A stretch of 64,000 nt of DNA from positions 16,320,769 through 16,384,768 of the forward strand of contig NC_089727.1 of assembly GCF_035083965.1 (NCBI RefSeq). Reading direction: 5' to 3'. The notes under the pieces are model-generated. The model made no database searches and had not been told where the DNA came from. It saw nothing but the letters and a program-made list of their open reading frames with translations. Shown in pieces: positions 22,801 to 56,068 of this stretch (the first letter of the stretch is position 1; each line of letters starts with the position of its first letter). This DNA comes from Branchiostoma lanceolatum (lineage: Eukaryota; Chordata; Leptocardii; Amphioxiformes; Branchiostomatidae). A program made the translations under genes and the position numbers.

Positions 22801-23291
22801 CTCTCCCGCCTGACAAGTCTGTAACATTGAGACATGGAATAAACAAATGTACACAAATGACACAAACTTAGACCATGTAATATCAAGAAGGTTAAATTAA
22901 CCTCCTTGGTAATATTGAATGGATAAGTCATTAATGAATTACACAAAGTTTTTTGTTGAATGAAAAGTGGTGATTCTTACCCGTCTGTTACAAGTCTTAC
23001 AGATCCCGTCCCTGTCTAGGTACTCTGAAGCTCCGCAGTCTTCACCGGCTGTTGGAACAGGGAAGCCCTGTTTTCAAAGAACACAGAAATACTAGTTTTA
23101 TTGGCATGTGGGTTTGTTTCTTTGTAAAATCTATCAGACGATGGTCGGATGTAGAATTCAGTGTTAAATTGATGTTGCCTGCAGTCCAACCATAGCTAAT
23201 ACATTGCATACTTAGTCTAAGTATTGCACAATAAGTCTTAAGCACTTACGAAAGCCAGGAGTAGTGTCAGTAGTCCTATAGTAATCAGCAT
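19874..23291 (-). CDS. TNF-receptor-superfamily death-domain receptor C (twelve exons, 514 aa)
   Basis: Exons in order: 23250-23291, 22981-23067, 22616-22818, 22326-22444, 21906-22109, 21650-21755, 21460-21521, 21171-21251, 20823-20965, 20637-20700, 20365-20463, 19874-20208 (1545 nt, phases all consistent). The signal peptide is MLITIGLLTLLLAF. Cysteine repeats contain CKTC, CEPC, CITC, CYGC and CIDC. The Ala/Val-rich membrane helix is at about residues 169-193, followed by KQKLCKPRG. Six small linker exons encode an acidic Ser/Glu-rich tail. The last linker exon carries a motif shared with gene D (QTA, then NxTAxxY, then TKL). The death-fold domain (about 404-514) has the TWRTFFE and SPTLALF blocks also present in D, so C and D are the closest pair. 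An acceptor just before the ATG implies a 5' non-coding exon. The function as a death or NF-kappaB receptor is inferred. Confidence 0.85.
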
Positions 23292-29550: not shown

Positions 29551-29957
29551 CTATGATTCTGACCCTTCATCAACTTCTATTTGAGTGTGCTCACTAAAGT
29601 CTGTGTTCATAATCTCGTCACACAGATAGTCTACAAGTCCAGTAAACTTTGTTTTGTCTAAGGCCTCTAAAACGTGTCCAACTGTTAACATGTTCATGAA
29701 ATTTCTAGTTTCTAGGACCTTAAACAGTGCAAGAGTCGGGCTGTCTACCCGGGTGTTGTTCACAGAGTCCATGTCAAGCTTCTCTAGGTGACCGAGGGTC
29801 TCGAAAAACGTCCTCCAGTTGGGTAAGGAGGCTGCAGGGGGTATTTGGTCCAGCTTAGCTGATAGATGCTGCTGTCGGTCAAAGTTGAACCAGTCGTGTC
29901 TCAGCGGTATCTCTGTAACAGATATGGAACTATCAGTTTAGTGTCGTTGCTTTGCCT

Positions 29958-33000: not shown

Positions 33001-34285
33001 CGCTCGATCAAACAGCCAAAGGAGGCAATCAATCAATTCACCTTACGAAACCAAACCCCTTACCACTTGGTTTCTTGACCACGACCTTTACAGGGCAGTC
33101 GGTGTTGTTTGTTTTGTCGAAGTCGCAGTGAATGCAATTAACTTTCCCCCAAGACGTGGCTTGCGCAAAGAATCTGAAAAACGAGACAGAAGCGTTAGAC
33201 TACCCGATGCGACATGACCACACGAGGAGGAGGGAGAGGCATATGTTTTTGAGTTATCATTGGAAATTTGGTCGTAAAAGTGGTTGAAACACAGGTTACA
33301 GTTCAAATATGTGTTTGAAAACCATGCGAAAGCTTAGGATTTACTATTTGAAAACATGCGTTTCTAGCTAGCTTAAAATCAATATAGCCAACGTACCCTT
33401 CTAAACATCCACCGCAAACGGTTTGTGAAAATTTGTTGCATGCTCTGACGGTTTTCTTCCCCTGGACGTCACACAGCACACAGGTCCGCTCAACACCCTT
33501 CTCACAGGTGTATCCCTCCGCCAAAGGGCTGCAATCTTCGCACACCACATCTTTACCGGACACGCACCGTTGTAGTATTCTCTGACCAGGTTCGCAGCCC
33601 TTTGTAGAAAAAAGGCAGTTCGTTAGTGTTTGAGATTTCATTGTGACACTGATACTAGCAAAATCATAATCATTATAATGTTCCATAGTAAAACACTGAC
33701 AGAGATTTCTACATCGCCCTTGAATATATGTATACTCTGGAATAGCTGTATACGTATTTGTGTCTCTGGAAGTGGGACAAGACAATGTGTGTTTGTGGCG
33801 GGAGAGTCAAAATTTTTATTTTGTGGATACTTACTCGGTTTGAACAACTTTTACACTGTTCTCCGTCAAGATACTGCCTTGTCCTGCATGTTTTTGCAGC
33901 ACTGACCGCAGAGGGCATGAAAGCTACAATCTGTAAGAAAAAAAAAGATTAACTCGGTAAGTTGAAGTTTCAAATTTTCTGTCTATCAACAGCAAATACC
34001 AAAGCCAACAGGTGTAGGTCATGGTTAACTAGAACTGTTGTGATCTCGTGTGAATGAAAAAAGGAAAACTTACATGTGTTGCAGATATTACAACGTGACT
34101 AGCTGACTCCGAATGAGGAAATCACATATGTAGCAGGAAACAATGAGAAACACACGTACCAGTAAACATGTGAAGAATATGATGTGTTTTAGTCTCCGCT
34201 CGGTGAGGTATGTTCTGGACGGTCGTCGTGCATTCGCAGTAGGCGTCAGAAGCAGACGAAAGGCAGGGCAATTCACAGACGACAT
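29551..34285 (-). CDS. TNF-receptor-superfamily death-domain receptor D (nine exons, 533 aa)
   Basis: Exons in order: 34160-34285, 33835-33930, 33397-33599, 33064-33173, 32563-32787, 31682-31807, 31073-31321, 30289-30393, 29551-29912 (1602 nt, all phases agree). The N-terminus has an unusually long basic n-region before the hydrophobic core HIIFFTCLL, which continues into exon 2. Cysteine repeats contain CKSC, CEDC, CVLC, CGGC and CIHC. The membrane helix is at about residues 199-222, followed by the basic KIKDQLKRRK. Three linker exons are acidic and Ser-rich. The last linker exon shares the QTA/NQTANAY/TKL block with gene C, and the death-fold domain (about 414-533) shares WRTFFE and SPTLALF with it. 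An acceptor ten bases before the ATG suggests a 5' non-coding exon. Signalling through its death domain is inferred from the family. Confidence 0.85.
29960..30022. repeat. CAT trinucleotide microsatellite
   Basis: About 21 CAT units lie in the last intron of receptor D, followed by a run of nine or more G. Confidence 0.95.
32030..32168 (+). repeat. Dispersed retroelement-like terminal repeat in an intron of receptor D
   Basis: The block contains CTGACGA, a GACAG/CTGTC hairpin, GAAACGTCTG and then TTATCCAGTTGCTTGAGTAA. The last part recurs at 40853-41000 and 50320-50425. Its hairpin and CTGACGA/GAAAC boxes are like those at the ends of Penelope-like elements. No coding part is attached. Confidence 0.45.
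32818..33003. repeat. AATC/AACC tetranucleotide microsatellite
   Basis: About 180 bases of CAATCAAT mixed with CAACCAAC fill much of the intron between the stalk and membrane exons of receptor D. Confidence 0.95.
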
Positions 34286-37200
34286 CTTCGCACATCTGAA
34301 TTAACAGGGGAATATTCCATATTATTGATTAGACGGTTCAAAGTTGGATTTTTCAAATTTCCCGCCAATACATGATCCGCCTTTACATGGGTCAACATAC
34401 TGACGCGCCAGGGTGGGGCATGACGTCACATGCCGTATCACATGTCGACACACAAGACTGACCAACGTTTGCTTTCTTGTTAGGACTATCGCTTATCTTT
34501 ATTTCAATAACATACCAACATGCCGACAGGAAAGGAAAAAAACAAATCAGAACTCAGATTAGAAATTGTACACCGGAACATGTAAGTCTGTCAGTTAACA
34601 GAAGAGTGAGCATAACACATTTTAGGGGACAGTGTATGTTTTCGGGTCACACTTACGTTCCAGAGGTACTGTACCCCTCGTCGTTTATACAGTGTTACAA
34701 GGGTTACTGATCTATTTAAATGTTTGGTAATCTTTTGTTGAATCTTAAGTGTCCATCATTTTCGAAGGAGATAACCAGTTGATCACGTCACCTAATCTAT
34801 CCTGTCAAATGTGTGAAAGTAAGAGGGTATAACACGGGAGCCTTGAAAATACTAAATTAAGGACATGCAACTCTAGACTTTAATGCTAGAGTTCGACACG
34901 AGCAAGAATTTATATGCCCGGCCAACCTAACAGTCTACATTTAACTGGTGACAACGTCTGCCTGGGTGACGTTTTATCCACTGTTCAGACATGTGTCTAC
35001 GAAAGGGGACCGTGCAATATTAGCGGAAAGTTTCAGAGACCAGCGCCAGTGCCAGTAAATGAAATCTCAGTGTCCGGCTCCTCATTATCAAGGACCACCA
35101 AGCTAAATAGAATGTCAGTATTATATCAGTAAGATGTGAGTAATACTTTGGAAGAATACTACCAAAAATACGTCTATTGACTATACAGTTCTGGAATTTT
35201 CTAACAATGTATAAGAAAACAGGATCACCTACCTACGCCCGCAACCACTCGGAAAAGAAATGAACAAATTTGGACTCAAAGCGGCGGTCCAGCCTCTTTC
35301 GCCCCGCCCACATCCGGCCTACGTCACTGATAGCCAACAAAGGTGAGGGCCTGACCATACAAAAACACTCCTACGCACCTGTGTGGAACAATGCCGATAG
35401 AAAAGGAGGGGCTGCTTTGGTTTGCACCTTAATGTCTCGCTATTTAGCTCCTGTTCGGCCGTTTGACGTCAAAAGCTGTTTATCAAAAACGTATTACCCC
35501 TGACTTCTTCGAATTTTGGTCTGACTCCAACCAAGGGCTTTCTCCTTATTTCCGGGTTGCGAAGTACATGTATTTTCGAGACGTAAAAATGGACAGACTC
35601 ATGTATAAGTGCACTTGATACTAGTAGTCTTTTTATGTACAACGATTTGAACTATCAATGAACTGTGCAGCTTTTATGCATGTTTCCTGCCGTGTGCACG
35701 TTCAAATAAACTTTTAAACCACCATCATGTTTCTTTAGGGGTGTTGTTCCCTTCGTTGTTTTCGTAGTTTCATAAATAGTATCAGATTTCTTCCCTTCTA
35801 TAGCTCTCAGTAAAGTTTATAGAAGTACGTCAGCGTTGCTGTGAGACCTGAATAAACCAACATGTTAACAATGCTCCCGGCAACGTCAACGTTAGATGAG
35901 TCATAAAGTCAACAATCTTGATCGACGTCGTTACGTCACAAGGAAGTAAAAAAGTATCAGATGAACGCACGATCACCACGTATTGCATCTTTGTCCTTAC
36001 ACTAAGGCTTACAGTGGTTTGAAACTCATTGTTTAGCGGTCAAGGGCACAATATAGTCTATACCCAGGGTACGGTAAACGCATTTAAGTTCGCGTGGTAT
36101 TTAGCGCCATTAAAGGCGAAAATGGAGTGTTGGTGCAGGTTTTAAGTTCACGGAAGCTAAGCGCTAAAGTCATACTGCTACAGTATTGGACAAAAATGTT
36201 CGCCGCGAAAACCGCGAACATAAAACCACCGCGAACATTTCTGCATTTACAGTATTACTTTATAGTGCCTTGTATATTCGGAGTAGATCTCAACAGCTCT
36301 ATATGTATTGACTTGAATGATTAGTCATGATAGATATACGAGACCTTTGACCTTTGTATGGCTGATAGAGCACTTAACGCTACCATGAATTCGACAGCCT
36401 TTTAATTCGAAACTTTTGAATATTGGCTTGCCAATTTAAGATTCAGCAGGGTAATGTAAAAACTGTTAATTGCAGGGATGGCGGCAAAAACAACATACAA
36501 CCTGATAAACTCAATGATTACCGAAATACTCAAAAGCCCGCTTGTTGATTTATCATACAATGGTCCGTAGGCGTAAAGGTTTCCTATCGTTATACTTGAA
36601 GCTCTCCATCCAAAGTTTGTAACTGAGATGGCATACATATATGTGTAGCATGAACTACTAGCAGTAGATAAAACAAAACAAATCAAACCATATGCATTTG
36701 GCCACAGCAAGTAAATTTTATGGATGACAGCGCGCTCATTAATTTTCGCCTGATGAGTGATTTTGAAAAGAAAAGAAAGATTCCCCCCAGAGATGGTCAA
36801 CATGACGAGAAAGTGTTATCAAAATGTGAAAATATATCGTATTGTAGCTTTGTTCCTGTGGAAGTGACACTGGTGGGGTATAGGCTTGACCGTAGTTTGA
36901 TAGTTGTAAAAGTCCATGTAAAACTAGCAACAATTTGGTCGCCAACGTTTTTGTCGAGTTTTCTATTTTCCCCTTTTTTCAAATCTGTGTCGCCATGCAG
37001 TGTCAAAGACAACGTCAACAAGATTGGCATCGTAAAATGACGTTGCCATGGCGACGGTGGACTCTGTTAGTGTTTCCGCTTTTTAGCCCACATGCAAATA
37101 ATGACCTCATTTGCATAGATTACATCAGTTGATCACATTCTCTACCAAATTCCTGACATTCCTGTGGACACATTCCTGTACAATTCCTAGAATTCTTGCA

Positions 37201-37518
37201 GACTGCACACAATACTATACCATTAGGCTCGCCCCTGAGGCGTCGCCAAAAACAAGCCGGAGCCGAACCTCTGCTTGGGGAGTTGACGTAAGTCAGATAC
37301 TAGTCTTGAATACAGAATGAAAAGCCGGCTTGCATGGCTGTGATACCATGTTTTGTCGCTTCAAATCTTTACAATGTTTATGGTGGTTATTTTGAAAATC
37401 TAGCCCTCTCGCATATTGAGTCTGCAGAGAATGTCATCCACAAGATTAACTTGCTGCTGTGTTATATGTATGACTTAACTTGACCGGTATGTATCGAGCC
37501 ATCAAAAAGGGACTTACC
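34286..37518. other. Intergenic region upstream of receptor D
   Basis: A candidate first-exon donor for gene D (GGAAC then GTAAGTGT on the minus strand) lies near 34655. TGACGTCA lies near 34418. A MITE is at 36070-36254. A hydrophobic 133-codon open frame at 36402-36803 has no supporting context and is not called. Otherwise nothing is recognised. Confidence 0.35.
36070..36254. mobile_element. MITE of the TACTGTAAATGCA family
   Basis: Imperfect inverted ends (TACGGTAAACGCAT and TGCATTTACAGTA) and an internal region with repeated GCGGTGGTTTTA-type blocks. About 185 bases, non-coding. A sister copy lies at 50960-51160 with the same internal CTACAGTATTGGACAAAAAT. Confidence 0.65.
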
Positions 37519-40500
37519 TTAATGTACATTCCATTCCTTTCCACGCCAGTCCATGTAATTATAAATCAATCCCGTCGATCGTAAGTGGCATTGGGAATCA
37601 TCGATAGGCGTGCACGGGCAAATATCTCTATTTTCCTTCCCCGCTTCTGCGACTTGAATCTTGATGACTTTCGGGCGTGACGGTCCTTGGGTGCTCGATT
37701 TTGTCGTTCCCACGACGGTGGGATTGGCGCTAAACATCCTTGTGTCGAGTGCCGACAATGGTGACACGGGGATACATATGTGGCTCTCGGCCTCTGAGCT
37801 CTCGCGATCGGCCTCTGAGCTCTCGGCCTCAAAGCTCTCCGCCTCTGAGCTCTCCGCCTCAAAGCTCTCCGCCTCTAAGCTCTCCGCCTCTAAGCTCTCC
37901 GCCTCTAAGCTCTCGGCCTCTAAGCTCTCCGCCTCTAAGCTCTCCGCCTCTAAGCTCTCCGCCTCTAAGCTCTCCGCCTCTAAGCTCTCCGCCTCTAAGC
38001 TCTCGGCCTCTAAGCTCTCCGCCTCTAAGCTCTCCGCCTCTAAGCTCTCGGCCTCTAAGCTCTCGGCCTCTAAGCTCTCCGCCTCGAGTAAGCTCTCGGC
38101 CTCCGAGCTCTCGGCCTCCGAGCTCTCGGACTCCAGAGAAACAGGTGTCTTGAAGGGTGCTACAAGACGCACACCTACAGAACGATACATACAGGTGGTT
38201 AACAATGTACATGTACTGACAAACACTGGACGTTTTGAGAAATTGCGAAGCTGGGTACTAAAATATGCCAAGCGCTAATCTCTTGGCAGATGTTGGGATG
38301 GAAGTTTGAACATTTTCTGACTGCCGAGCACTTATATGGTCTTTTATACTCACACGGGATGGATGGGTGCTTGTGACGGAAACCGCACAGCACGAAAAAC
38401 GATATTTAAGCATGCTTAAATGCTACGTAAAGAATGCGGTTTTTCATTCTTTTAGGTCTCTTTACGATACCTTTCCGAGTACGTAAAGTTGTCCTTTACG
38501 TGTCCTTTCCGGGAGTGCGTTTAGGTCCGTATTTGCACTTTTTACGTAACCTTTCCGTGCCATTAGGGTCCGTAAAGGGTTATTAAACAACTATTTAAGC
38601 ATGCTTAAATACTACTTAAAGGTTGCGGTTTTTTATTCTTTAAGTACTCTTTACGATACCTTTCCAGTGGTGCGTTTAGGTCCGTACTTTCACTATTTCC
38701 GTAACCTTTCCGTGCCATTAGGGTCCGTAAAGGCTTAGTAAACAACTATCTTTTAGAAATATTTACGGAAATTTTTCGTCGGAAAGCATGCATTTCCTGA
38801 AAACTTTCCTAAGTCTTTTCGCATCCTTTACTTAATATTTAATGAAAGACAGAAACAAATATATCTTTCCAACAATTTATTTCTTGACTTGTCTTTGCAA
38901 GTGTTACATTTCATGTTTTTATCTTCACATATACGTACTGAATACATTTTTAGACAATAACAATCTTTTAAAATGCAAACTCAACAACTGCCCTTCTCTT
39001 GGAGTCAGATATGGAACGGTGTAGAAAACATTTAGATAAAAGTTTCCACAGAACCAGAAGACTTTAACTAGTAGTACAATGCTAAAGTTTATATAGTGTT
39101 ACCCTATATTGCAAGTGCTGCCTCGTCCAAATTCAATGTCAAGTTGCCACAAGAATAATATTTTGGATTCAGAAAAATAGTATGACTACAGAACAAGAAG
39201 ACTTGCTTCTGCTTGTGATTACCCCTTAAGTAAGCAACACCATTACATGTGTGGTTTTCTACTGACAGGACTTACTACTAACATTATCTTTGCAAGTGTT
39301 ACATTTCATGTTTATATCTTCACACATACTTACTAAATAGTCTACAAATCCAAAAAATATATAATACAAAACAACATCATATAGGCTACATATTCTTGAA
39401 TCACATGCTTTTGCAATTGATCACCATTTCAAACATTACTTGATCTTCAGTGTCAACATTTTTAGACAATAACAATCTTTTTAAATGCGGGGTCTGGAAT
39501 GCTGGCCGCCACCGAGGGGGAGGGGGGATGTCAGTGATCTTGTTGCCATGTACCGGTTGACTTGTTGTAGTATTTCCGCTTGTGGTTGAAGAAAGTACTT
39601 CCAAGTACATGCTGCTGGCAGTGACCACAAAATTTGTGGTATGTTGGTTGTGTGCGAGTCAAATCGATACTGATCTCGACCTTTCTGCCTGGGTCTGCAA
39701 GAAAAAAATGCACCGGCATTGGTTACAGTGTAATGCAAACTAAGCTGGCAATGTTAGACAAGTATTTGACCTTTCTTTGTGCTATTGCATAAAACTTCTT
39801 GACTACTGTTGAACTACATTGTATCTATTTGTATGTGTATTTACATGTGTTTATTTAGTACATGTGAAATGAGAAGGGGCAGCGAATATCTGTGAAATGT
39901 TCTATTTGATTCCAGTAGGTGATATCTGGTGGGGAAGCAGGGATTAAAATTTCTGGTGATGCCAAATGGTTACAGGCAGTTTTCCCGGGAACTCAAGATC
40001 TAGAGTACTGGACTAGGAAGCCCTTAAGCAATCCGCATTAGCCTTGTATATATAGTTAACGGTGCACACCCCAGTTCTTCCGCGACCGGGGTCCACGGAA
40101 GTGCCCGACAAAAAAGTGACTAAAGGGTTTCGAGGGGCTGGGCTTGAGTTTAGATTTCTCATAATGTGCTTCGAACTGATATTAGATACTAGCATGGCTG
40201 AAAAGCGTATGAATTGGTGTGTTTTGGGTGAAAATTTCGTTTCGATCTGAGCCTTGCTTCCGGATATCCATCCGCGTTGATGGTGAAATGTCCCTTGGCC
40301 CGGGATTGACCTTTGTTGCGTTCTGTGGGTCATGCTGACATGCCTCGCGCCGTGGATGATTAAAGAAATCTAAGTACTAGAATTTTCTTTATAATTGGCT
40401 CGACTGTACGCTAGGTTTTGCTCTTTCTGACAACATCAGTCGTTTCTACCCAGAAATTTTTTCTACGAGTTTTATCCTACACAAAAGTGCCAAAATTTGA

Positions 40501-43417
40501 CCATCATATTTGACCTGAAAATTATGTTTTTGTCTCCTGATTTACCAAAATCAGAGAGGTAGAAGAAACAAAACTCAGCTGGTCCTGTAGCGGAAGGGAT
40601 AGGCTTTCATCCCATACACAGTTGATTTACTTCGGAATACTTCCCTGGAAGAGACAGTACCTAGACTCGAGGGTGCGCAGCCTCCAATTGAAACCCCAAA
40701 TAAACTGGGGTGTGCTCCCTTAATATATATTGTTACTAGTTAGCAATCTGCTTTCTACCTAATCCTCCCAAAATATATGTGATTAAATAAATTGATAAAC
40801 AAAAGCTATGTAATGACTTTTAAGTGTTTGTGAAAACAACAGATAGTCCTGGTACGCCAAAAATAATTACTCAAGCAACTGGATAAGGTTTCAAGTTTCT
40901 TTACAACATAATGTACAAAACCTTATCCAGTTGCTTGAGTAATTATTTTTGGCGTATCTTATTACCTGGATGTCTAACCTTCATCAACGATAGTCCTGGT
41001 AGTCTGATATAACATTATTACACATGTACAAATAAAATAACTTGTGCTAGTATTTCTTGCAAACTTTATAATATTTTAGTAAACTTACAGTTGACAGTCA
41101 ACAGCTCAGATAAGTCCTACAGAACTTCAACCAGTACCAAACAGTCGGTGTGCCTATTCAACAGTCAGGAGAGCACCGGAATACACCTAAAGAAGTGTGA
41201 AATCAGAATGTTTTGATTAGTACATATTGCAAGTTGCTATATTTTGGTGAAAACAATGTACATATAGCCCTATGAATAAGAAATCACTGCAATTTATTTC
41301 TCATCCACTCACATGTACATGTAGTGTCACTTTAAATTTCTACAAGGATATAATGTCCTTGGTTTCTGGTGTCAATTACACACACTGAATAATTCAACAC
41401 CAAAAAGTATGTACTTTATGATGCCATGCCATTATGTATGTATTAGACATACCCTACCACTTATTACGTATGTACACACTCAATTTTTCGATGCCCCTCC
41501 CCATTTTGACGGAAGTTTCTAAAAGATTCTAACGCAATACACATACAGTACATAATTATTCAATAATCTTAGCCCCCCCCCCCCCCCCCCCACACACACA
41601 CACGGTACTTGGGAAATGTGTGGACGTTCATAAAATTTGCGCTTTCTTTAGCACAAATCAGGTATAGCAGAAAACCCGCAGTTTTCCCGCAAATGCAGCA
41701 TGACCAGGTTTGTCGTGCTCTGATTGACCTATGACCCAAAATGGCGTCGCCCTGACACCTCACCCCAGAGGCAAGAAAGGGTAAAAAAAAACGCTAATGA
41801 TTGACAACACCTTGGGCCCGTTTTGGGGGCAGCCAAGCAAACTCTATTTAGTCGTCTTCTAATTATTTGTGTTGGACTCGAAGCGGATGTGCAATTTTAG
41901 TCTTTTATCCCAGCAAACAACGCTGTTGACTGTTTCACCGACTGTGACCTTTAGGAAAATGTGTTCTGAAAGAACAACGTTACTGAGGTCAAAAGACGCG
42001 GTGCAGATATTATCATGTTACTTGTGAAACACCCATACATCCATACATGCAACACAACTGTCATTGCATATACTAGCTGGCAGATAAGGTTCTTACCTAT
42101 GTAAACTTGGCTGTAACCTGTAGATGGAAGCCCACTTCGCCGTGGTACAGGTTACCTTCACGTCCTTGCTTCACGTCTGACAAGTTTGTTTCCCGCGCCT
42201 TAGGTATGGAAATTTTGTCACATGCGATGATCACGCTGTGTTCACGCGGGTACTGACCAATCACAGACTGAGCGCAATCGCTGGACCAATCAGAAGCTCA
42301 TAATCCCTCGAGGCGCGCTTTGCAGTTGTGTGCCTTGTGATATTATAATAGATTTTAAAGATGTAGTCTATATTTGGTAAGTCTATCAGACTTGGGCTCT
42401 GTAGAACTGTTACATGTAACTGTCAGTTAATGTCACACAGTGCCAGGCTTATAGCAATCCAATGGTTTTTATATCATGTATTCTTGGTTAGATTTACCCA
42501 CAACATACTATAATTCCATATCTGTTGTCTCTACATTTTAAAAGTTTATCATATAATCAAAGAGAAACTTGTCTTGGTCACTGTCCTGGTCAGAACACCT
42601 CAGCCGTCACTTGCAGACTGATGTTGTTTGCATTACTGCTAGTTTTATAGTAAGGTGAGAAATTTGAAGTGGAAACTGTGTATGGTTTTGACTATTGCAA
42701 TGTTGACTGTACGTCATGTTTAAACTATGAAAGCGATATGTTTACGTCACATTTATGCAATGCGTGAAGGTTATGAAAATATCTGCGTCTTAAATAGGTA
42801 TTTACGTTGTTCGGAAAGGATAAGGAAAGGTCAGTTTTATCTTTCAGTTGCCTTTCCAAAATCGTAAAGTCTGCTGAAATAATTCAATTTCTTTAATGGC
42901 TCTTAACGTAGTAAGGAAAGGCTGCGGAAAGGTCAACTTGTCTTTCAGTTGCCTTTCCGAAATCGTAAAGTTTGCTGAAATAATTCAATTACTTTAATAG
43001 CTCTTTACGTAATGAAGAAAGGCTACGGAAAGGTCAAAATTATCTTTCAGTTGCCTTTCCGAAATTGTAAAGTCTGCTGAAATATTCAACCACCTTTAAT
43101 ACATATTTACGTAGTTCGGAAAGTTGGCTTAAATATCAGTTTTCGTGCTGTGCCGGTCACATCCCAAAATGGCCCAAGCGAATTAAAGAGGCGAAAGAAA
43201 GAATCTCAGGTGGCAGTTGTGATCTCCGAGTTAAAGATTCTGACTGAGGTGTCGAAGGTGACACCACCGACGTACGTCCTAGGCCTTCTCCAAGAATGTG
43301 GACTTTCCTAGGCCTCTTCCTCGATAGCTTCTTTAAGGGGCAGAGGATACATCCAGCACACCCTAGTCTTGCCATCAAACCCGGCTTAGCTTCCGACTTT
43401 GATTCGGTGGTTCCCAT
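37519..43417 (-). CDS. Tentative two-exon gene F: acylated-type N-terminus plus LEAES pentapeptide repeats
   Basis: Proposed exons are 43276-43417 (142 nt) and 37519-38159 (641 nt), with a GTACGT donor, a TCTTGTAG acceptor and matching phases (260 aa). Exon 1 begins MGTTES, a match to the N-myristoylation pattern, followed by the clustered cysteines GCAGCILC and the basic [10 protein letters not shown]. This combination is typical of membrane-anchored cytosolic proteins. Exon 2 holds about two dozen LEAES-type units and a unique tail ([15 protein letters not shown]). I do not know the family. The join across the CACTA element rests only on splice signals and phase. A strong donor (AAG then GTAAGT) directly after the stop at 37519 is odd and could mean that the true last exons lie further on or that another frame is used. 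Confidence 0.3.
37785..38135. repeat. 15-bp minisatellite inside exon 2 of gene F
   Basis: About 23 copies of GCCTCTAAGCTCTCC, with variants carrying GAG or TCGG, sit in tandem. The unit is a multiple of three, so all frames stay open on both strands. On the minus strand it reads as LEAES repeats. Confidence 0.9.
39531..39694 (-). pseudogene. Zinc-finger exon remnant of the CACTA transposase
   Basis: A strong acceptor (TTTTTTTCTTGCAG) opens a frame containing [16 protein letters not shown], a C-x2-C...H pattern followed by basic and aromatic residues. C-x2-C...H motifs occur near the N-terminus of transposase-associated proteins of CACTA-like elements. No DDE catalytic region was found elsewhere in the element. 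Confidence 0.4.
40853..40956. repeat. Foldback repeat nested in the CACTA element
   Basis: Arms of about 37 bases (TACGCCAAAAATAATTACTC and its inverse) flank a 30-base centre. The right arm continues into TTACCTGGATGTCTAAC, as in the dispersed repeat at 32030-32168. It inserted after the CACTA element. Confidence 0.6.
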
Positions 43418-46400
43418 GTTTGGTTTGTCTTCAACTTGACAAATTCACTTATTCACAGCAAACTTTAGATATCGATACCTTGTTCGACTGTGAACAATCG
43501 AGAATAGGTGCGCGTGCCATAGCAACGGCCAGTGAGAGAACAAATGTTGCGTCTTGGATTATGCTATTCGACTGGAGGGGGGTGTGTGTATTTTTTTGCT
43601 AGGTAACGTTACATCGATATCTCGGCCTAGGAATCAAATTATTTTTCAAGGCAATTTTGAATGGGCGGGGGATTGTTTTATTTGCCGATCGCGTCAAAGA
43701 ATTAGCCTCTACTAGGCTCCGCGGATCGCTGGGAAAGTAGTAGTAATTGGTCCTAGCGTTATGCGGTAAATTATCACACGATGCGGAACACCCGTATCGA
43801 ACGTTTTCGCGGCCCAGGTATGACAATAACAAAGTTGCAATAAAAACTTCCTCTGCAAGTCGGAAACGGTCTTTTCAGTCAATCTGCTTTCAGGTTTGGT
43901 TCGAGCGGGACCTAAAAAGTATTTAAAGTACGTCCTGCAGTTGCATATGACCCAACATGACCCCATTTGAAAGTGGTCGGCAGAATGTTAAAAAAAACAC
44001 AATTTTTTTACTTATTTTGTAGATTGTACCCTCAACTTAAACATATTCGTTTGTCATGCTTCAGAAATGCACCCTAACGTTACTATAATTTTATTGGCTT
44101 CGATGTCAGTCAGTCTGTGGTCCTTATCATAGAAATCCCCATAGGCCGAAGACTGTGTTCTGCTACCTTAAGTTTATTATCTTCGCCGAGTACTTGTACT
44201 CGGAGAGGATTATGTTTTCGGTTGAAAAATCTGTTGGGTGGGTCTGAATGTATGTCAGGAGCATAACTCAAGAAAACTTCAATCAATCTTTATGATTTTT
44301 GGTAGGTGTGTAGTGGTTGTGTAAATGAAGGTCAAGTTCGAAAATGGTTTACCTTGCGTTTTTCAATAGTACTGCAGCGGACTTAGCATTTTTTTGTGTT
44401 TGTATGTAGGCAAAAAAAGTGACGGAAACGTTGATGGATCTTCATGTTTTTTTTGCAGGTGTGTAGATGTTGTGAAAACGGAGGTCAAGTTCAAAAATGG
44501 TTCTCCTGGCACTTTCCGTCGGTACTGCAGCGGGTTTTGTGTGGATGTGAATTTTCTTGTGGACAACATAACTCAAGAAGCTGTTGATGGATCCTTATGA
44601 TATTTAGTGGATGGGTAGGATTTACCGAAAGGAAGGTCAAGTTCGATAATGGGCCTTCTAGCGGGTACCAAAGGTACTGCAGCAGAGCTTCAAAATGTAG
44701 GGGCATATTTTCTGAAAGTGCTATGGTCATGATTTTTGTGTGGTAGATAGTTCATGCCACAGAAAGTAAGTTCTGTAAATTTTGGCCCCCTAGCGGCTTG
44801 TTAAGAACCGCAGTGGGTGTTTTTGTTTTGACATTCGGACATGAATAACTTGAGAATGGGTCGACAGATCGTCGTGATGTTTGGTATGTAGAGAGCTCGG
44901 ATGGTGCTTTACATAATCAATGACTAATTATGCAAATAAGGAGCTAATTTGCATAATTAGTAAGGAAAGTTTGTTAACCCACTGCCTTTCAATGGGACAT
45001 GGGACAGTGTCAGGTCATGTAAACAGATAGCCTTGCATAAACATACATGTAGGTCAAATAAATAAACTATTCTCCAAGCAGAGGTGTGGGTCCTGCTGGT
45101 TTTTGACGCGTTCAGTTTAAGCATTTTTGTTCAACACGGTTGGCGACATAACGAAATAGGGACAAAATAGAAAGCCTGACTAGAAACACCTAAAAACGTG
45201 CCAGATTTATTCTATTCATATGTATTGACTGTACTATTTCATCATCACTTTCAACTTTCAACACTGCCATATCGAACCTTTGTGGCCCATATAATATCAA
45301 CATACTCATATTTTTTCATGACCAGTTATAACATATATCAGCACACTCTACACATATACTAGTCCTGTACCACCAAATGATTTTTAACCCTATCTTAACT
45401 GGCCTCAATCGCCCAATCATAACGTCCAAATGGTATGGTGCATGATCAAATTTGCAGGGGGTGATAGGCACGTAAATATAAATCACTTTCCATAATAAGC
45501 CTTGATTATTTGGCGAAGATAATGTGTTTGTGGAACTCTAGTTTGCAGATGATACGGATTCAGTTTGTCGGTTAGAGCGAAATGATAACGTTTGTACTGT
45601 ATATTGAGAAGTAATTGAACGGTTACAGTTGTACTCCATCTAGTTATCACTAGATGGCGCTCAGTCACTGCCAATGCCATCCTAGATACGAATCGGCGAC
45701 TTGAACTCGGCGGCCAGTTTTACGTCTGCAGTAGTGCACTTTTAATTTTTTACCTGCGTGAACAATTTTCATTTTTAGCCCTTTTCTGTGGGCGTGTAGT
45801 GTGTCAACACCTTGCCCCTGTCTTGGCAGTCCCCCGGGGAGCCCAGAGACATCATAGTCGGTTAAGTGCCTGGGCAATATTGTATGAACTTCGGTCCACA
45901 TCGATCGTCTTCCAGGCTTGAGCCAGCGAAGTAAGTTAACTTACAGTCTTAATTTTGATGACGTAAGATCGTGATCGTGAGCAAAAATGTGTCAATTTTC
46001 CGGTAATTATATTGCCAAGACTGCAATGATTGTTTTAACTGGCACTGGCAGCGTCGCTTGCTTTTTGTGCTTCAATCACCTTTTGAAAAACAGCTGAGAA
46101 AGTTCATGAACACAAATTTTCTTTAGGGGGGGGGGGGCAAAAACGTTTTATTGTATGGGGCAGCCTCAGCTTTGTAGGACTTCGACTTGTAGCTGTGCTG
46201 TTTAAGACATGATGTTCCCTGGCTGATTTTGTGAAATCTAATTGTTGACGTTAGTTGGAAAAGGTTAGGAAAATATTGGCAGAAAAATATGTCACTAACA
46301 ATCACACCTGGCAGTAGAATTGTGCCTAATCGTAACTGTCACTTTTGTTGTTGTGTTAATTAGTTTTTTTTCTATGAGTGATTATCTGTTACCAATTAAA

Positions 46401-46482: not shown

Positions 46483-49400
46483 ATGTTCCCAAGTGTCGTG
46501 TTCAAAGACTGCACCTTTGAGGGCAATGAGATAAAAGTGCAGGTCAATAGTAACAACAACAACAACACAACTAATAATTATAACTATGGACAGCAGCAAC
46601 CAGGTTAGTTGTATATATCAATAATGTCATTTTGCAATTACAATTGAAATATTGTGAAACTTTGTTTTAATAACCCTTGCCCATACAGCATAAAGATACA
46701 CATTATGTTATGCAGGTGATATCTATGGTGTTCATTAGATTAATAAACCTTGAATTTTTACATAACATTCACTGAATAAGAGGTAATTTGTAATAATGAC
46801 CACTTGTCCATGTAATGACTGAATTCTAAGAATACATGCATATTTAGACATTACTTGATTTGTATGAAAATACTTGCCTTGATGAAACAATTGTAATTCC
46901 TTTTGTTATCGTGAAATGTTTTGAAATGGCACTGGGCCAATGTACCACTGATGTGATTTTTTAACAGTTACTGTTACATGTATCTCTCTCTCTTTCCCAT
47001 TTCGTTACATCATTATGCTTGTAACCATACATACCTTTTGTTTCTTTCCAAAACCTACCATCTGTTTCTTTCAAAACCATTTAATTCTTAATTGTTAGCT
47101 TTGATTTTTGTTTGACAATTGAAATGTAGGGGCAGACTCTTCTACTAACACACCACCAGAGGGAGGGAGACAGGAACACGATAGAGGACCTTCAGCACAT
47201 CAGGGGAACCAGGCTTCCAATGCTGCTCCAGACCCACAGTCCTTCCCACCCCCACATGATGAGGCTGACACACCTAGTAGCCTACCTAGCCTTGTCACTG
47301 CAAGCTCCTCGTGGGTGTCAAGTGATGACGCAGGCTGGGAGACAGATCTGTCATCTTCTAATAGCCAAGTAACCTCAGCAACCTCGGAAGATTTCACATC
47401 ACCAAAGCAGAGGGTAAATGAAGACGAGGGGAGAGCACAAGTTGCTGATAGGGCGGAACCAGTGGAAGACAATGGTGATGGGGAGGAGGAGGAGGAAGTA
47501 GAGGATGCTGCTGCTACTGAAGATGAAAAGTGGGAGGTGGAGAGCAAGGAAAAGGAGGGTGATTGCAGTTCCAGGGAGCTTGAGGATGTGCAGCTCAGCG
47601 TAGATGAAAGTGGTGGGTCTTCTGCCTCCATGTCTGCAGCTGGACCTTTGTTGAGCACAGGTTTGGGTTTGACCGGTGGTCAACAAACTGGGGACCAACC
47701 AATGTCCCTTCGCAATCACAGCGCTTCATCTGCAGTACATCGCCCTGAGACAGAGAACATTTCCCCATCCTCGGCAAGTTCACGCTTGAGCCCAGCTGTA
47801 TCACCTGCCGGACAGGTACAGGAAGAAGACACGCAAGCCCGGCTGACTGCAGGGCTACTCGGTGACCTGCCTAGAGATGACCGACCGGACACAGCAGCAC
47901 GGGACGAGATAGACCCAGAGATGGCGGCAATGCTAGGAAGGCTGAGAGAAGAGGACATCCCAGGTAATGGAATGGGTGAGCCTGAAGAAGAGGCAGCAGT
48001 AGACCCAAATGAGCAAGCCACAGGGCCGTCCAATGGAGATGCTTGCCCACCACAACCATGTCAACACCCTCGCATAATGCTGCAAGTCTCTCCAGAAGAA
48101 CCTATTGAAGGTCAGTTTCTTCAATGATTAATCATAGATCACTTAAAACAAAACTCTAGGCATTTTAGTGCTGTAGGTGTAAATGGTAACTATAGCTCTT
48201 TTGCCTTCATAGTGATATTTGTCAACATTGATTTAGATATTCTCTAAATGTGATGGTTACCGTAATGCAAGATGTTAATTTCAGGTGACACAGTGGATTT
48301 TGAGCTGCTGAATGTGCCCTTGCATGGGATCGGCGATGTGGAGTGGAAACACAACGGCAGACCTGTCCAACAAGCCTTCGGCCTCCACCATACCATCAAC
48401 AGTGTCAGCCAGACGGATGCTGGTGTCTACCAATGCATCGTATACAGAGAACAGAAAAAGATCAACGTTGTTGCTGTGGTGGAAGTGACGCTGCGTGTGA
48501 AGAGTAAGTTGAAAAGAATAAATGACTGTGTTAAGTTTGAAAAGAATGAATGACTGGATTCCAGCATTGTTTGATTTAATAGCTCTAGTCTGCTTCGAAT
48601 GGGGCGGAGTCACGACTGTTGGGAGTGGACCAAAACTAAGGAGGCTGGGCTCCAGGCAATATGGTTGGTTCATATCTTCCCGTTCATCAATGTTCTGTAT
48701 CAGATGTCCTCATTGGTTCTTACTGAGTCCTCTCTTCTCTTCATTGCAGAGTCCACAGATGTAACAGGACAGCCATGTGTAGAGGAGGAAGGTGGAAGTG
48801 ATGGAAGTCCTGGAAGGGAAGAACACCATCCAGGTACATTCTAAAATTATGAAATTATAGTTCAAAGGTATGATTCTTACATACAGTATAGATCAGTCAG
48901 AAAAAAGACTTCAGGCTTCATCATTTTTTTTCGTTGGTTTTTGAAAACATGAACTTGACTACATTCACTGCCTTAAACTGTATGTACCAACTTGTACATA
49001 CTTTTCCTTCTGACTCTCTTTTCATGTTCATATTCCAATATTGACATCTTTTAGAATCAGAGAACCAAAAATATGAATTGGTATCACCTTACCTTCCATT
49101 TGTAATCCCAACAGCAGCAGACAGAAGTGGAGATTCAAGCATGCAAACCAATGCTTCCCTTCCAGGCAGTGGACGTAATGGGCTGTCTGATCAGTCTGCA
49201 CCGGGCGGCAGGGACAGTGCTGCTGATGCACCTGTCCTTGGAGGTATGTTCAACGTTATTGCACCAGACAGAATAAGATTAAACAAGCTAACTCAAATGT
49301 ATGAACTTCACTGAATATGATCAACCTACAATTTTTCTATATGACACAAGGTCTAGATCTGTTACAGAATGATATAAAGGCATATCTAGTGTAAAGCTAA

Positions 49401-52271
49401 AAGCGGTCCCCAGAAAGTGCGAAATGGACAAAATGGAACGTTCCTTATATTTCACTATCTACTGGTATTTCATTTCATAATGTTACATATGTTTTAGTTT
49501 GATCCATTTCGTTCCATTTCGCACTTTCTGGGGACCCGCTAAAATATTGGGTTTTGACCCTGATATGTTCTACATTTCAGCAACTGCAGGAAATCCAGAT
49601 TACGAGTCCCTTCAACAGAGATATCAGCAGGGACAGAGGCTGATGAAGGAACACAATGACCTCTCATGTATGAACTTGCCATATAGAAATGTTCTATAGG
49701 TGTAGATTATAGATCATTAATGATATTTTTATAGTTGATGATAATTTTTTTCAAAATTCTATTTTCATACATGTAGTGTGATGTCTGACATATTTCTTGA
49801 TTTTGTCATTAAGGCAACTAATCACTAGATAATAGTAAAACAAAACAAAACAAGCTACCAAGAAACCTAAGCATACATTTTTCTTTTCACAGACTATCCA
49901 TTCTTGACCGGTCCATTTCCTGCTGACCAACGTGACTGTGTAGTCATGAATGCTGGACCAGGTGAAACCACGACACCGTTCGACCCGATGCTTGAAAAGC
50001 TGACTGCTACTACAGAGGTACCAGTGACCGCCAAGAAGACGTCTCCACCAAACCGCACAGCTCCCTTAGCTCTGAGTATAGAGAGGAAGGACAGTGCACA
50101 GTTTATGAAGGATGGCTCCAATGAACAGTCCGTTTCTGTAGGTCTCCTTTTATAATAACTGTCAACTACTACTCTCCAAGCAGAGGAGGGTCTTCGGCTG
50201 GTTTTTGACGTGTTTAAAGGCGTTTAGAAACACGTCAAAAACCAGCCGAAACCCCTCCTCTGCTTGGAGAGTAGTCAACTACAATGTAATTGTATTCTTA
50301 CATCGTTGAATGTTAGACATCCAGGTGATAAGGATGCAAGGTAACAGTCTCTCACAAAAGGAAGTGAATGCTACCTGAATACGTGTCCAATTTCTAGAAT
50401 ATATCCAGTTGCTTGAGTAACCAATACCTTGTGTAATTGTACTCTTGTAAGCTTTCATGTTGAGGGGGAGTATTTATATTTTTAATAGCAAAGTGAGCTT
50501 GAAGATATTAATAACAAAGCAAAAGTTATTGTCCACTTTCTCTTACTTTCAATTAGTGCATGAATGCATGTAGTGTTACACATAACATGTTGTTCATCAA
50601 TGCTGACTTTGACAATTTTTAAATCTTACCTGTGACGAATCTTTTGTATCAGCACATATTAACATCAGTCACCAAAACTAAATGTAACTATTGACTTGTG
50701 TCCTCTTTTCACATCAATTCTGGTGCATTGTCAAGTGATTAACATGTAGGTAAAAATATACATTAGTTGTGGAGTCATGGCTAAAAAACCTGGCCTGTAA
50801 TGTATTTGTTGTCTTCCATTTTAGGGTGGAGGAATAGGATCTGGAGAGACCAAGACGGACAGATCCGGGGCAAGTGGCAGCTCTGATAGGAGTGCCAGGG
50901 AACAGCCCTGTCGCAGGGGTTCGAGGTGTGTTTGTTTTTAGGTCATCGCAAAATTTGATTACTGTAAATGCATGTAAGTTTGCATGGTTTTTATTTCACG
51001 CTAAGGCGAAAATTGAGTGTTTGCGGTGGTTTTAAGTTTGCAGCAGCGCTATAATTACATACTGCTACAGTATTGGACAAAAATGTTTGCGGTGGCTTTA
51101 AGTTTGCTGTGAAACGGTTGCGAACATAAAACCACCGCAAACATTTCTGCATTTACAGTACTTTACTACCGTTTGTTTAAAATTTTTTATGTTATTGCCA
51201 TCAAACCCTACATTCTATTTCAGTTAGATCAAGACCAACATATAGTACATAGTTCTACCCCCACACTGATTAAAACACTTTGACACTTAATAATACTGTA
51301 TAATGTTGAGATGACTCTATAAAGTCTGACCTTTGTCTGCTTTTAAAGCCAATGATAACATTATCAACAAAATTCTACAAGGAAAAGTGCTGGTCCAGGA
51401 ATACACTTTTAATTCAATGTTGACTTAATCCCTCTTGTATTACAGTAGCTCATCAGGACAGAAAGATACAAGGTGTCCCGACAGGTCACCAGTCCAAACC
51501 AAAAAGTTGTCCGTCCCTGCCCAACCTGACATAAATCGTGAGTGTTCACAAGTTTTGCTTGAGTGCTTTTCTTGATCATGAACTTCAGTCACATGCTATT
51601 TATCTTTTCAGGTCTACGTGTAGTGTAACTTGTAGGTGTAGGTTTGTGTAAATGATAATATATTATAAAAAAAATTGTTGATCTCCACATTCATGTACAA
51701 ATGTACCATCACAAACCAAAACAACTTCATGTGCATAAAAAGGAACATGAATGATCATATTTAGTATCATAGCTATCTAGTACAAAATACTAGAGACATT
51801 GTATACAGACTGGAAATATTTTGTTATGTTATATATATATGCACCCATTCAAAGCTGTAACACAATGCAGGCTATGCCGCTATTATTGGCTACATAAGTC
51901 CTTCCTTATATTATATTTTGTTCATGTCATCATTAATCAAATACGATACATGCACATCTCTCTCCATAGCTACCTATTATAAGATCCCACTGTCGGAGCT
52001 CATGGATGATGCTGACCTTCTGGACGAGGTCAAGGTCAAGCTCGACCAGGACTGCTGCGGCCGCAAGAACTGGAAGAATCTGGGGTCGAAGTTTGGAATC
52101 CCACGCGATCAGCTGGAGAACTTTGCTTTCCACCGGAGGTGCACCGAGGCAGTGCTGGAGAGGGTCTCCTCAGAGAGTCCTGAAACCTCTGTGGGAGACC
52201 TTATGAATATTTTGTACCAAATAAAGAGGGGGGATGTGGTTGACATGATCAGACAGAACTTGGACATGTGA
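46483..52271 (+). CDS. Gene E: cytosolic Ig plus death-domain protein with Asn-rich N-terminus (ten exons, 806 aa)
   Basis: Exons: 46483-46603, 47130-48110, 48285-48503, 48750-48833, 49055-49243, 49581-49667, 49893-50137, 50825-50925, 51446-51537, 51970-52271. They total 2421 nt, all GT-AG, all in phase. An in-frame TGA 15 bases before the ATG supports the start. There is no signal peptide or membrane helix. Residues 1-40 contain KVQVNSNNNNNTTNNYNYG. Residues 41-367 are acidic, Ser/Pro-rich and probably disordered. Residues 368-440 form one Ig domain with VEWKHNG and DAGVYQC; the B-strand Cys is replaced by Leu, which is common in intracellular Ig folds. Residues 707-806 form a death domain with NWKNLGSKFGI. 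The combination of an Ig fold and a death domain in a soluble protein recalls MALT1, but no paracaspase domain is present. A role as an adaptor for death-domain receptors is inferred. Confidence 0.85.
49402..49540. mobile_element. Short MITE in intron 5 of gene E
   Basis: Inverted ends (AGCGGTCCCCAGAAAGTGCG and its near-exact inverse) bound a 139-base non-coding element. Confidence 0.65.
50170..50273. mobile_element. Palindromic MITE with 9-bp target duplication in intron 7 of gene E
   Basis: The 104-base element is almost entirely palindromic, with termini TACTCTCCAAGCAGAGGAGG. An exact 9-bp duplication, GTCAACTAC, flanks it (50161-50169 and 50274-50282). Perfect arms and an intact duplication point to a recent insertion. 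The 9-bp duplication suggests mobilisation by a Mutator-like transposase. Confidence 0.8.
50960..51160. mobile_element. MITE of the TACTGTAAATGCA family in intron 8 of gene E
   Basis: Ends TACTGTAAATGCA and TGCATTTACAGTA are exact inverts. The interior has three GCGGTGG(C/T)TTTAAG blocks. It is the sister of 36070-36254. Confidence 0.75.
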
Positions 52272-53951
52272 AAGGACAAAGTTTTAAACATTGTGTTGGA
52301 AAATAGGCCAGGTAACTTAGTAGTATTTTACCACAGTAATGTGTGATATCTCCAAACCTGATACACAACATGTGTATGTAGTTGTTTCTGGCTATGGAAG
52401 ACGCTAGTCGTCATCTCGATTAGAATCCGCTGATGATGTGATATACATCATAGTGTCTTACATATTTTTACGTGAGAGGCCTTGTGAGGAAAATATTAAT
52501 ATAATGACCACTTTGTATCCCCAAAGCCGGGATATGAGGCCTTTATAGATATTGAACATTTTTATGAAGATGTATTTGTATGAAATTTGAGCAAGCAGTG
52601 CTTGATTTTAATGGTGGGGACTCCACTTTAAAAATGATCCGAAGCCACAAAGTGTGCTTTTTAACAAGTTGTTTTTATGGGATGAATCTTTTTCTAAGTG
52701 TTGCAAAGTTAACGTGGTCATGTATATTCAGTCAGTCCATTCTAAAGATCTAGACTGACGATACTCAAGATATTGTGAAACTCCTAGCCTGTCAGTGTGG
52801 ACTTAATCAGGTACAAGTGTGTAGATATGGGATAAACTGTTTTCTTTTTATATGCTTGTAGAATTGAAAGATATGGAGTAGAAAGGAAGACTGGAAAATT
52901 GTCAATCATGTGTACATGTATGAAAGGATCATGGTGAAACAAACAATTTGTACACGGAATATCAATGTTTTGTGTTTATATGGTTACGTAAGTATGTTGT
53001 TACTTACTTATTGAATGTGGGACAAACTTGGTTGAAGAGGACGTAAAAGACAGAATGAATGGAAACTGAATGGGAACTTTATTAATGCTTCACTTGGTTA
53101 GATCCCGAGAGGAAGATTGATGATTATGTTACACCAGTCCTACATGTACATAGCTACAGTATGTATAATGTTACAATGAAATTTAACAACAGCATAATGT
53201 GTTTCAACAGCATAATGTGTTTCAACAGCATAATGTGTTTCAACAGCATAATGTGTTTCAACAGCATAATGTGTTTCAACAGCATAATGTGTTTCAACAG
53301 CATAATGTGTTTCAACAGCATAATGTGTTTCAACAGCATAATGTGAGAAAGTGACTTTAGCCAGGAGACATCATAAAAGCATAGGGCAGGGAGCAAAGCT
53401 CAGGATGTTAAAATTCCTGACAATGTTTTCCTTGTTTCTAGTTAGCCTCCATTGCCAGCACTTTGATATTGCCATTTTTGGATTGACAACATTGTAGGTT
53501 GCAAACATGTTCTCATGGGTCTTATGTAGAATGTTGGAATCTTGACCAAGGTCCAGTAGTAAAAGAAAAGTCAAGTTATATATCAAGTTATGGAATAAAA
53601 ACAAAACTGCATCAAGTCTCAAAATGCCTCACAGATATATGCTGCAATGCACAGTAGATAACATACTACCAAAAGGTGAGTCGCATACATGCACATAAGT
53701 ACAAACATTACTAGTACTCCTAACTAGTACCTGTGTACAGTAGGCATAAAGGAAAATCACATTGGGTCATGCCTGTAACAAAAAAAATTGACGTATCAAG
53801 ATCGTCTTTACCGAGTCCTTTTTTCTGCGATGGGACCATCACGTGACATTCAATCATGTGTTGCTGTACATGCATGGTCGCACTACTGACGGGAAAGTTC
53901 CATTTGTGGGACGTTGGTGTGCACTTCCGTTTCTCCTTTCTTAATGATACA
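52272..53951. other. Region between the convergent genes E and THAP-DDE
   Basis: This is probably mostly the 3' UTR of gene E, with AATAAA on the plus strand at 53594-53599. It contains the 18-bp minisatellite. No coding signal is seen. Confidence 0.4.
53187..53344. repeat. 18-bp minisatellite
   Basis: Nearly nine head-to-tail copies of AACAGCATAATGTGTTTC show no visible mismatch. They lie about 0.9 kb past the stop codon of gene E, possibly in its 3' UTR. Confidence 0.95.
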
Positions 53952-55572
53952 TCAGCGTTCAGGTGTTTGAAAGTTCACAAGATAAGCGCACACAACAAAA
54001 ATCTTCTCTAATAAAGTTTTCGTAACATAGAGCTTCAACCTTCTGTCCAATAGGCGGAACCTCTTTATCTGACCGATCATTCTTTTAACATGTGCTTGGG
54101 CCTTAGCGATTTTGTTTGATCTTAAAATCCCAGGACTTGTCAGCGCTAGCTGAGAGCGACCCACTCCTTTGGAGTCTGGGTTTCCTGACATGATACCCAA
54201 TGCACTCAGCTTAAGCTCCATGTGCATGGTGGACCCCTTGTCTGCCGAAACACTGTCGACTGCTTTTAAAGACTCCAGTAAGACCTCACTAGCTCTGTCA
54301 CCAAAGCATGCTGAGTAATATGTCACTGCAAGGGAGTGGCTACTGACACCAATCAAGAACTTGATGGTTTCATGTTTGTAGTTAGAATACAGCTGCTGCT
54401 CTCTTACAGTCAGGTGATCAGGCTCTGTGAACAACTTTGTGCAATCTAGAGTAACTACAACATCTGGAAACTCACAGAGACAATGCTCAGCCTTACCTTC
54501 TTCTACGACTTTCTTACATGGAAGTTCAAACATTGCTTTGAATTCTGTATACATCAAATCAACCCAAGAGGAAAATAGTTGGGAAAACTTATCCTCACTG
54601 ATAAGGAGTCTGGCTGAGGCATCCGACACTGGCACGCCAATCCTCAACCTCGTCATGACAACAAAGAACTCCTCTTCTAATGATACTGTTCCTTCATCTC
54701 CAAGTTCATTGTCAAGTGTGGCCTCCCCCCTCTCTACATGTAGGTCTGCCGCCTTAGGTTTCAGGTAGTTGAAAACTGCCATAAAGGTTCTGTAGTTGGG
54801 AAAGCCTGTCCAGAATCTTAATATCCCAGGATGGTCCTTTATATTTTCAAGGCACAGAGCAGCCTTCTTCAGCCTCATGTGTTCCGCCTTCAGTTCCTCC
54901 AGCTTCATCTGTACCCTTCTCACCTCCTCCATGTTTACAGTCTTCTCCTCTTGTGTTTTAATGTAGTCGTGGTCAGTCGTGGACCATACGGCCTTCTCGT
55001 CACCCATAAACATTTGTCTTCTGATCTGGTCATCAGGGGGAGGGTGTCTTCCTACTTGTGATGATGATGATGATGATGGGTGACTTGATGTTTCATACTC
55101 CATTCTGCGCTTCAGTGAAGTACCTGACTTAACAGTGACAACCTTGGCTGGAGTGACCACTTTGGCTGCATTAGCTGACTTTAGAATATCTTTGTTGGCA
55201 GTTGTAGCTGATTTTGGAGTGGCGGCCTTGGCTGGTGTAGACTCTTTTGGGCCTGACTGTCTGTTCCTGCTGATACCTACTGACACAACGTGTGTTTGAG
55301 TTTTTTCCGCTTCTTTTGACTCAAAGATAGTTGGAATGTAGCCAGCACTCCCGGGGATGTCAGACTTTCTACCGTACACAAAGTGTCGGGAGCACAGTTT
55401 TGTTGTGGTATTGGGTGTCCATGGTTGTGAGGGATTCATGGAGTTTACTTGTGTTATGGCTCTTACCCATAGTATCCGTCTATATGGAATCTGAGGCAGA
55501 GTGTAGAAACTGAGGTCTCGGTCCTTCTGTCTTGATGAATTGCACACACAACAGCGATCATTGCCTCCCATC
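53952..55572 (-). CDS. THAP zinc finger plus ISL2EU-type DDE transposase-like protein
   Basis: One long coding exon starts at the ATG at 55571 (539 aa), directly after the acceptor TTTTTGCAG. The N-terminus is a THAP domain (about residues 1-84), with C-x2-C at residues 7 and 10, a conserved Trp in LWVRAI, KLCSRHF and YIPTIF. A Ser/Thr/Lys-rich spacer and a coiled-coil segment (MEEVRRVQMKLEELK) follow. The C-terminal half matches DDE_Tnp_4 of ISL2EU elements: TLDCTKLF (first Asp), YSNYKHETIKFLIG, VSADKGS (second Asp), then AHVKRMIGQIKRFRLL. The family usually has HVE here, so the third catalytic residue is replaced by Lys. The frame is uninterrupted. No flanking inverted repeats were seen. 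It may be a domesticated DNA-binding protein or a recently inactivated transposon copy. It is convergent with gene E. Confidence 0.8.
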
Positions 55573-56068
55573 CTGCAAAAACAAATCATTCAATAAGGAG
55601 GTGCTTCATTTCTGTGTGCAAAGTTTAACAGATTCTTATCATAAAATCTTAAGGGACTGTACATTATTTACTTGGGGCAGGGCTGGTGCAAAGAAGACAC
55701 CAAAGAAGACCCCGGCTCAAAAAAAATTTCAATGGCCCTCCCCAGACCAAAAAATGTTTCAATGGGACTCCCCTCCCCTCATGAATGAGATCAATGAAGC
55801 TGGTGATTCCAATCGACATGATGAGGGTCATATGGACTACGAACAAAATTTGGATCTGATAGATTCATACTATTGAAATGATAGAGCTCAAAATTATTTT
55901 CCCGCCATAACACAGTTAACCCCCTCCCCCTTATCTATGATATCAAAACAAGTTCTGGCAAACTGGTACACTAACGCCTACATGTGTATATTGTTGGCAT
56001 TAGTACCCCAGTATATAGAGCACTGTCATAATGGCATTTGAATTGTAACTTGAGAAAAATCATTTTAC

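Follow-up and report, generated by a model that had tools for sequence, protein, structure and literature searches.

FADD, EDARADD and Imd are soluble adaptors that carry a C-terminal death domain and no enzyme domain, and an immunoglobulin (Ig) fold is not known from any of these proteins, nor from TRADD. In the type 1 paracaspase MALT1, the death domain is N-terminal and is accompanied by Ig domains and a paracaspase domain, as described in passages of PMC5978004. Mixtures of Ig and death-fold domains have further precedents among immune-type proteins of marine invertebrates, namely oyster proteins with the order HEPN, immunoglobulin repeats, DED and TRADD-N, described in part of PMC8195603, and RLRs of lophotrochozoans onto which Ig or death domains have been grafted, which combine Ig with a cytosolic sensor (passages of PMC8998645). 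In lancelets, domain pairs have been gained unusually fast, by more than ten every million years, according to the text of PMC4284660. The same text names Ig domains as the most promiscuous in vertebrates and as used across all major deuterostome branches, attributes the Ig expansion almost wholly to 1-1 exons, and describes lancelet translocation regions as enriched in transposase fragments. The immune-domain hybrids of lancelets include TNFR-caspase and death-NACHT combinations (passages of PMC2575513).

A gene of the lancelet Branchiostoma lanceolatum, located in a window of 64,000 nt (the whole stretch of DNA that was analysed), is predicted to encode a protein that joins one Ig fold with a C-terminal death domain, hereafter the Ig-death protein. 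It resembles MALT1 as described in PMC5978004 in that death and Ig folds occur in one protein, whereas its death domain is C-terminal, its Ig fold is single and a protease domain was not detected. MALT1 chains are not among the PDB matches of the Ig or the death domain at E values up to 10, in single-sequence searches that are weak for such diverged domains. With the domain order reversed, no protease domain and no MALT1 chain in these matches, kinship with MALT1 is unsupported, and the comparison extends to fold content only. The likeness to TRADD, as far as PMC8195603 describes it, lies in a soluble protein with a C-terminal death domain and without an enzyme domain; Pfam matches to TRADD-N, DED or RHIM were not found in the Ig-death protein. 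The oyster and lophotrochozoan proteins differ, in the passages on them, by having other domains (HEPN, WD40, helicase), a DED, or the death domain in separate proteins, and the two-domain layout is not theirs.

Gene structure

The exons were rebuilt from the sequence and spliced by script, giving an 806-residue predicted protein and a stop codon (52269-52271) from ten exons at 46483-52271 on the plus strand (Table 1). The nine introns all have GT-AG boundaries, and the ten-exon, 806-residue gene proposed by the sequence-only reading was thus reproduced. The model with an Ig and a death domain is coherent, and this observation is confirmed.

Table 1. Coordinates in the window of the Ig-death gene and of the neighbouring receptor-like frames.
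Feature	Position	Strand	Description
Exon 1	46483..46603	+	start codon, Asn-rich N-terminal segment (~41 aa); Pfam: no known domain above cut-off; in-frame stop upstream
Exon 2	47130..48110	+	acidic low-complexity linker 1; Ig fold starts at the exon's end; phase 1-1
Exon 3	48285..48503	+	bulk of Ig fold (Ig_3 E 6.8e-6); phase 1-1
Exon 4	48750..48833	+	linker 2; phase 1-1
Exon 5	49055..49243	+	linker 2; phase 1-1
Exon 6	49581..49667	+	linker 2; phase 1-1
Exon 7	49893..50137	+	linker 2
Exon 8	50825..50925	+	linker 2
Exon 9	51446..51537	+	linker 2
Exon 10	51970..52271	+	C-terminal death domain, stop codon; Death 30.8 bits, E 3.2e-7
Receptor cysteine-rich frames	near 2992-3192, 12902-13156, 22615-22836, 33342-33626	-	chosen by eye, shared motif
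Receptor death-domain-like frames	392-748, 8924-9352, 19877-20272, 29554-29937	-	open frames
Receptor D death-domain-like exon	29554..29937	-	coordinates of the open frame containing it; Death 13.9 bits, under cut-off 22.6
Receptor D cysteine-rich exon	33306..33806	-	coordinates of the open frame containing it; TNFR_c6 14.4 bits for whole frame, under cut-off 29.4

Exon 2 is open over 981 bases, a property reached by none of 5000 shuffles in any of the three frames. It lacks a Met ahead of residue 208 (protein numbering) and is closely preceded by a stop codon, so that exon 2 requires an earlier coding exon. Exon 1 fits this role; it is also the exon of least certainty, being short and of ordinary GC (0.40, equalled or exceeded by 53% of random window segments). 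Exons 2-6 are each of phase 1-1 with a length divisible by three, so that isoforms lacking the Ig fold would preserve the reading frame, exon 3 (219 bases) being skippable in frame. Exons 7-9 preserve the frame as a block.

Two repeats accompany the gene. Intron 7 contains an inverted repeat of 48 bases (50168-50275; 96% complementary, 12 bases between the arms), which may be a small mobile element or may form a strong hairpin in the pre-mRNA. An 18-base tandem repeat of 8.8 copies with 100% matches is located at 53187-53345, about 0.9 kb past the stop codon. RNA families at the gathering threshold and tRNAs were not found in the 64,000-nt window.

Death and Ig domains of the predicted protein

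The Pfam family Death (PF00531) matches residues 738-803, with 30.8 bits for exon 10 and 25.4 bits in the whole protein, both over the cut-off of 22.6. The Ig fold was located at residues 354-420 by Ig_3, with 26.9 bits for the domain and 22.3 bits in the whole protein, below the curated cut-off of 30; the weaker models Ig_2 and I-set score 22.1 (cut-off 27) and 20.1 (cut-off 23.7). The predicted Ig fold is thus sub-threshold by the curated cut-off, yet the match is significant (E 6.8e-6). In the PDB, it matches an entry named immunoglobulin-like domain protein, with a total E of 5e-15 across 4 stretches, of which the best reaches an i-Evalue of 0.053 by itself, followed by a tail protein (6e-8), sidekick (3.1e-6) and contactin 4 (1.2e-5).

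Residues 354-437 contain a single Cys (418), within the motif DAGVYQC, and the second Cys of an extracellular-type Ig disulfide is absent from this interval; therefore, the usual intradomain disulfide cannot form. Disulfide-less Ig domains occur commonly within cells, as in titin and palladin, and a disulfide-free Ig fold fits the reducing cytosol. A 19-residue hydropathy scan of the 806-residue protein detected neither a membrane helix nor a hydrophobic signal segment. The peak value is 0.79 overall (two receptor helices reach 2.25 and 2.38) and 0.24 in the first 40 residues; the protein is therefore most likely soluble.

The linkers are long, acidic and polar, linker 1 having a net charge of about -47. 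With an E limit of 10, the whole protein has 5 listed Pfam families, none of them a peptidase or another catalytic domain; Pfam searches of linker 1 and linker 2 returned no domain, and linker 2 has no PDB match at E up to 1. The counts of TRAF6- and TRAF2-type motifs in the linkers lie under the shuffle mean and show no enrichment. One copy of PVQT (691) is present in the linkers, as in 13.8% of shuffles, and two Y..[LI] motifs, as in 5.3% of shuffles; one TRAF6-type PEEPIE (362) lies where the Ig segment begins, beyond the linkers that were shuffled.

Regarding the sequence-only reading, its claims of a C-terminal death domain, a single Ig fold, and a protein with no signal peptide, membrane helix or protease domain agree with these searches. 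In the profile search with both domains that it had proposed, the death domain passes its cut-off and the Ig match is significant but remains below the curated value of 30.

The neighbouring receptor-like array

Four receptor-like units (A to D) are arranged in tandem on the minus strand at window positions 392-33806, 8.5 to 11 kb apart. The cysteine-rich frames were taken by eye out of many listed open frames. Each unit has a hydrophobic stretch, with two candidates in the first. Among the four death-domain-like frames, only that at 8924-9352 exceeds the Pfam Death cut-off (23.3 bits); the frame of receptor D is a weak match (Table 1) and the other two have none. TNFR_c6, with a cut-off of 29.4, gives sub-threshold scores in two of the four cysteine-rich frames (18.7 for 33342-33626, and 10.9) and no match in the other two. 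The array is real in outline, and its detection by Pfam is poor.

The cysteine-rich frame of receptor D ends at 33806, about 12.7 kb from exon 1, in line with the distance of about 12 kb given by the sequence-only reading; the value is measured from the end of the open frame and not from the true 5′ end of D. The Ig-death gene and receptor D are on opposite strands and point away from each other. Of 176 open frames of at least 38 aa overlapping 33000-46400, eight in the interval 36-46 kb were scanned with Pfam, and none scored above cut-off, one giving a weak match of 14.5 bits. One scanned frame (37522-38274, minus) consists mostly of a 15-base tandem repeat, which extends over 37811-38127 with about 21 copies and 92% matches and leaves several frames open. 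Two similar short frames on the minus strand, 38831-38980 and 39262-39405, have the string MKCNTCKD in common and are perhaps a local duplication.

The death domain of the Ig-death protein shows 19-21% identity to the four receptor death domains; the other three receptor domains show 21-33% identity to that of the first receptor. In hhalign, the single death domain matched the receptor profile with a probability of 59% and an E value of 9e-5, and its score of 29.2 was reached by none of 200 shuffles (highest, 20.7), from which it follows that it and the receptor domains are distantly related as death domains. The exon 10 death domain is no recent duplicate of a receptor tail. When a profile of all five death domains was compared with the PDB, the closest solved death domains were those of p75NTR/NGFR, a membrane receptor (E 1.4e-5), and more weakly RIPK1, a kinase (E 0.07). 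As four of the five sequences in the profile are receptor sequences, the p75NTR match describes the receptors more than the Ig-death gene. When the death domain of the Ig-death protein was searched alone, unrelated proteins headed its PDB matches, namely an engineered TPR protein (E 0.012), cortactin (0.036) and a kinase entry (0.057), and NGFR followed at a non-significant E of 0.23.

Possible function of the Ig-death protein

The Ig-death protein may well be a soluble death-domain adaptor or scaffold, as suggested by the combination of a death domain, an Ig fold and acidic or polar linkers with no detected helix or enzyme domain. In such a mechanism, the death domain would dock on another death domain, either that of a receptor or that of a downstream death-domain protein, and the Ig fold or the linkers would hold a second partner; the protein could thereby bridge or block a death-domain complex. 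The relationship to the receptor death domains and the p75NTR and RIPK1 matches of the five-sequence profile speak for this reading; the hhalign probability of no more than 59%, the unrelated PDB proteins found ahead of NGFR, the acidity of all five death domains and the missing enrichment of TRAF-type motifs speak against it. Receptors A to D are possible partners. Gene nearness is weak evidence for joint function in animals, although the linkage itself is real.

A narrower form of the adaptor or scaffold reading is a dedicated adaptor of receptors A to D that selection has held nearby. The nearest receptor-like gene, about 12.7 kb off, and a distant death-domain relationship that exceeds 200 shuffles speak for such an arrangement, which is nevertheless unlikely, given that the gene and the receptors lie on opposite strands, that their death domains are only 19-21% identical, and that any two death domains would be expected to show some relationship. 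Moreover, all five death domains are acidic (pI 4.9-5.5), so that no simple charge complementarity is available for pairing. The interpretation given by the sequence-only reading, a lineage-specific adaptor physically linked to its receptors, thus stands as to a soluble protein with an Ig fold, a C-terminal death domain and no protease domain, about 12.7 kb from receptor D, whereas its service as an adaptor to these receptors is doubtful.

Alternatively, the Ig-death protein would be a negative regulator, whose soluble death domain competes with adaptors for the receptors while the Ig fold and the acidic linkers serve as an anchor. No effector domain was found by Pfam, in keeping with such a role. 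This reading overlaps with that of a scaffold, and no result separates it from a positive adaptor; we regard it as a rather improbable alternative.

Integrity of the gene model

An alternative to the predicted single gene is a model in which two genes were mis-joined, with the death domain of exon 10 and the Ig exon in different transcripts. In its favour, exons 4-9 are without homology support. Polyadenylation-like hexamers occur within the model, in four introns (46742, 48517, 49278 and 51269) and in exon 10 (52220). In addition, the open frame of exon 10 begins 109 bases before the acceptor and contains an ATG at 51924, upstream of the acceptor, which could start a product of its own. Against a mis-joined model, the frame is kept from exon 1 to exon 10 by the GT-AG chain. 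Because the exon ends were picked to preserve the frame, this phase agreement is partly by construction and is not independent evidence; for exon 7, a splice at the next GT (50142) would lead into stops and was not adopted. Base composition also argues against two genes, as the GC of the exons is 0.520 versus 0.334 in the introns (Mann-Whitney p 0.0002, both with all exons and with exons 4-9 alone), and every one of exons 4-9 is richer in GC than every intron. Compared with 2000 length-matched segments drawn at random from the window, exons 4-9 gave fractions of 0.13, 0.087, 0.23, 0.046, 0.009 and 0.194, with two of the six exons individually below 5% and a Fisher combined p of 0.002. Taken together, a two-gene model is decidedly unlikely.

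A more elaborate version of the adaptor reading, in which an exon-shuffled lancelet protein would use its disulfide-free Ig fold as a sensor or dock and its Asn-rich exon 1 for self-assembly in the service of a private four-receptor array, is very unlikely. For the 41-residue exon 1 peptide, the PDB yielded no matches beyond those to spherulin 3A (E 0.09) and a ParM fusion (E 1). A further, very improbable reading, a RHIM or amyloid-type adaptor in which exon 1 would act as a RIPK1-like assembly motif, was suggested by eye from the resemblance of FKDC and the VQVN core to a RHIM and from the Asn-rich composition (10 of 41 residues), and it was rejected, since Pfam RHIM gave no match at E up to 10 (42.5 bits for the positive control, which was human RIPK3 and not a divergent invertebrate RHIM), 2000 shuffles aligned as well in 20.5% of cases to the RIPK3 RHIM and in 11.2% to that of RIPK1, and the glycine in the core (V/I-Q-V/I-G) of RHIM proteins (RIPK1, RIPK3, ZBP1, TRIF) is Asn in exon 1, with unlike spacing.

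Origin of the domain pair

New domain pairs and the spread of Ig by phase 1-1 exons, both described for lancelet shuffled-domain proteins in the text of PMC4284660, are likenesses to the present gene, and from the phases of its exons we infer that the Ig exon was probably acquired via phase 1-1 exon shuffling. A DDE transposon protein is encoded 1.7 kb downstream, in a frame of 545 residues (53955-55589, minus) with THAP, HTH_Tnp_4 and DDE_Tnp_4 all above cut-off. The text passages of PMC4284660 and PMC2575513 make no mention of a soluble Ig-death pair. No title or abstract among the literature matches listed describes a soluble lancelet Ig-death protein, which says little on its absence from print. 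The Ig-death gene fits the documented domain shuffling of lancelets and would be one product of a known process.

The gene is an apparent clean case in which exon shuffling puts an Ig fold, mostly extracellular elsewhere, into a soluble death-domain protein. Given the rate of domain-pair gain in the account of PMC4284660, above ten per million years, such a new pair is less surprising in lancelets than it would be in a vertebrate. If the nearby receptors prove to be partners of the Ig-death protein, the lineage would be building a receptor-adaptor set within one locus.
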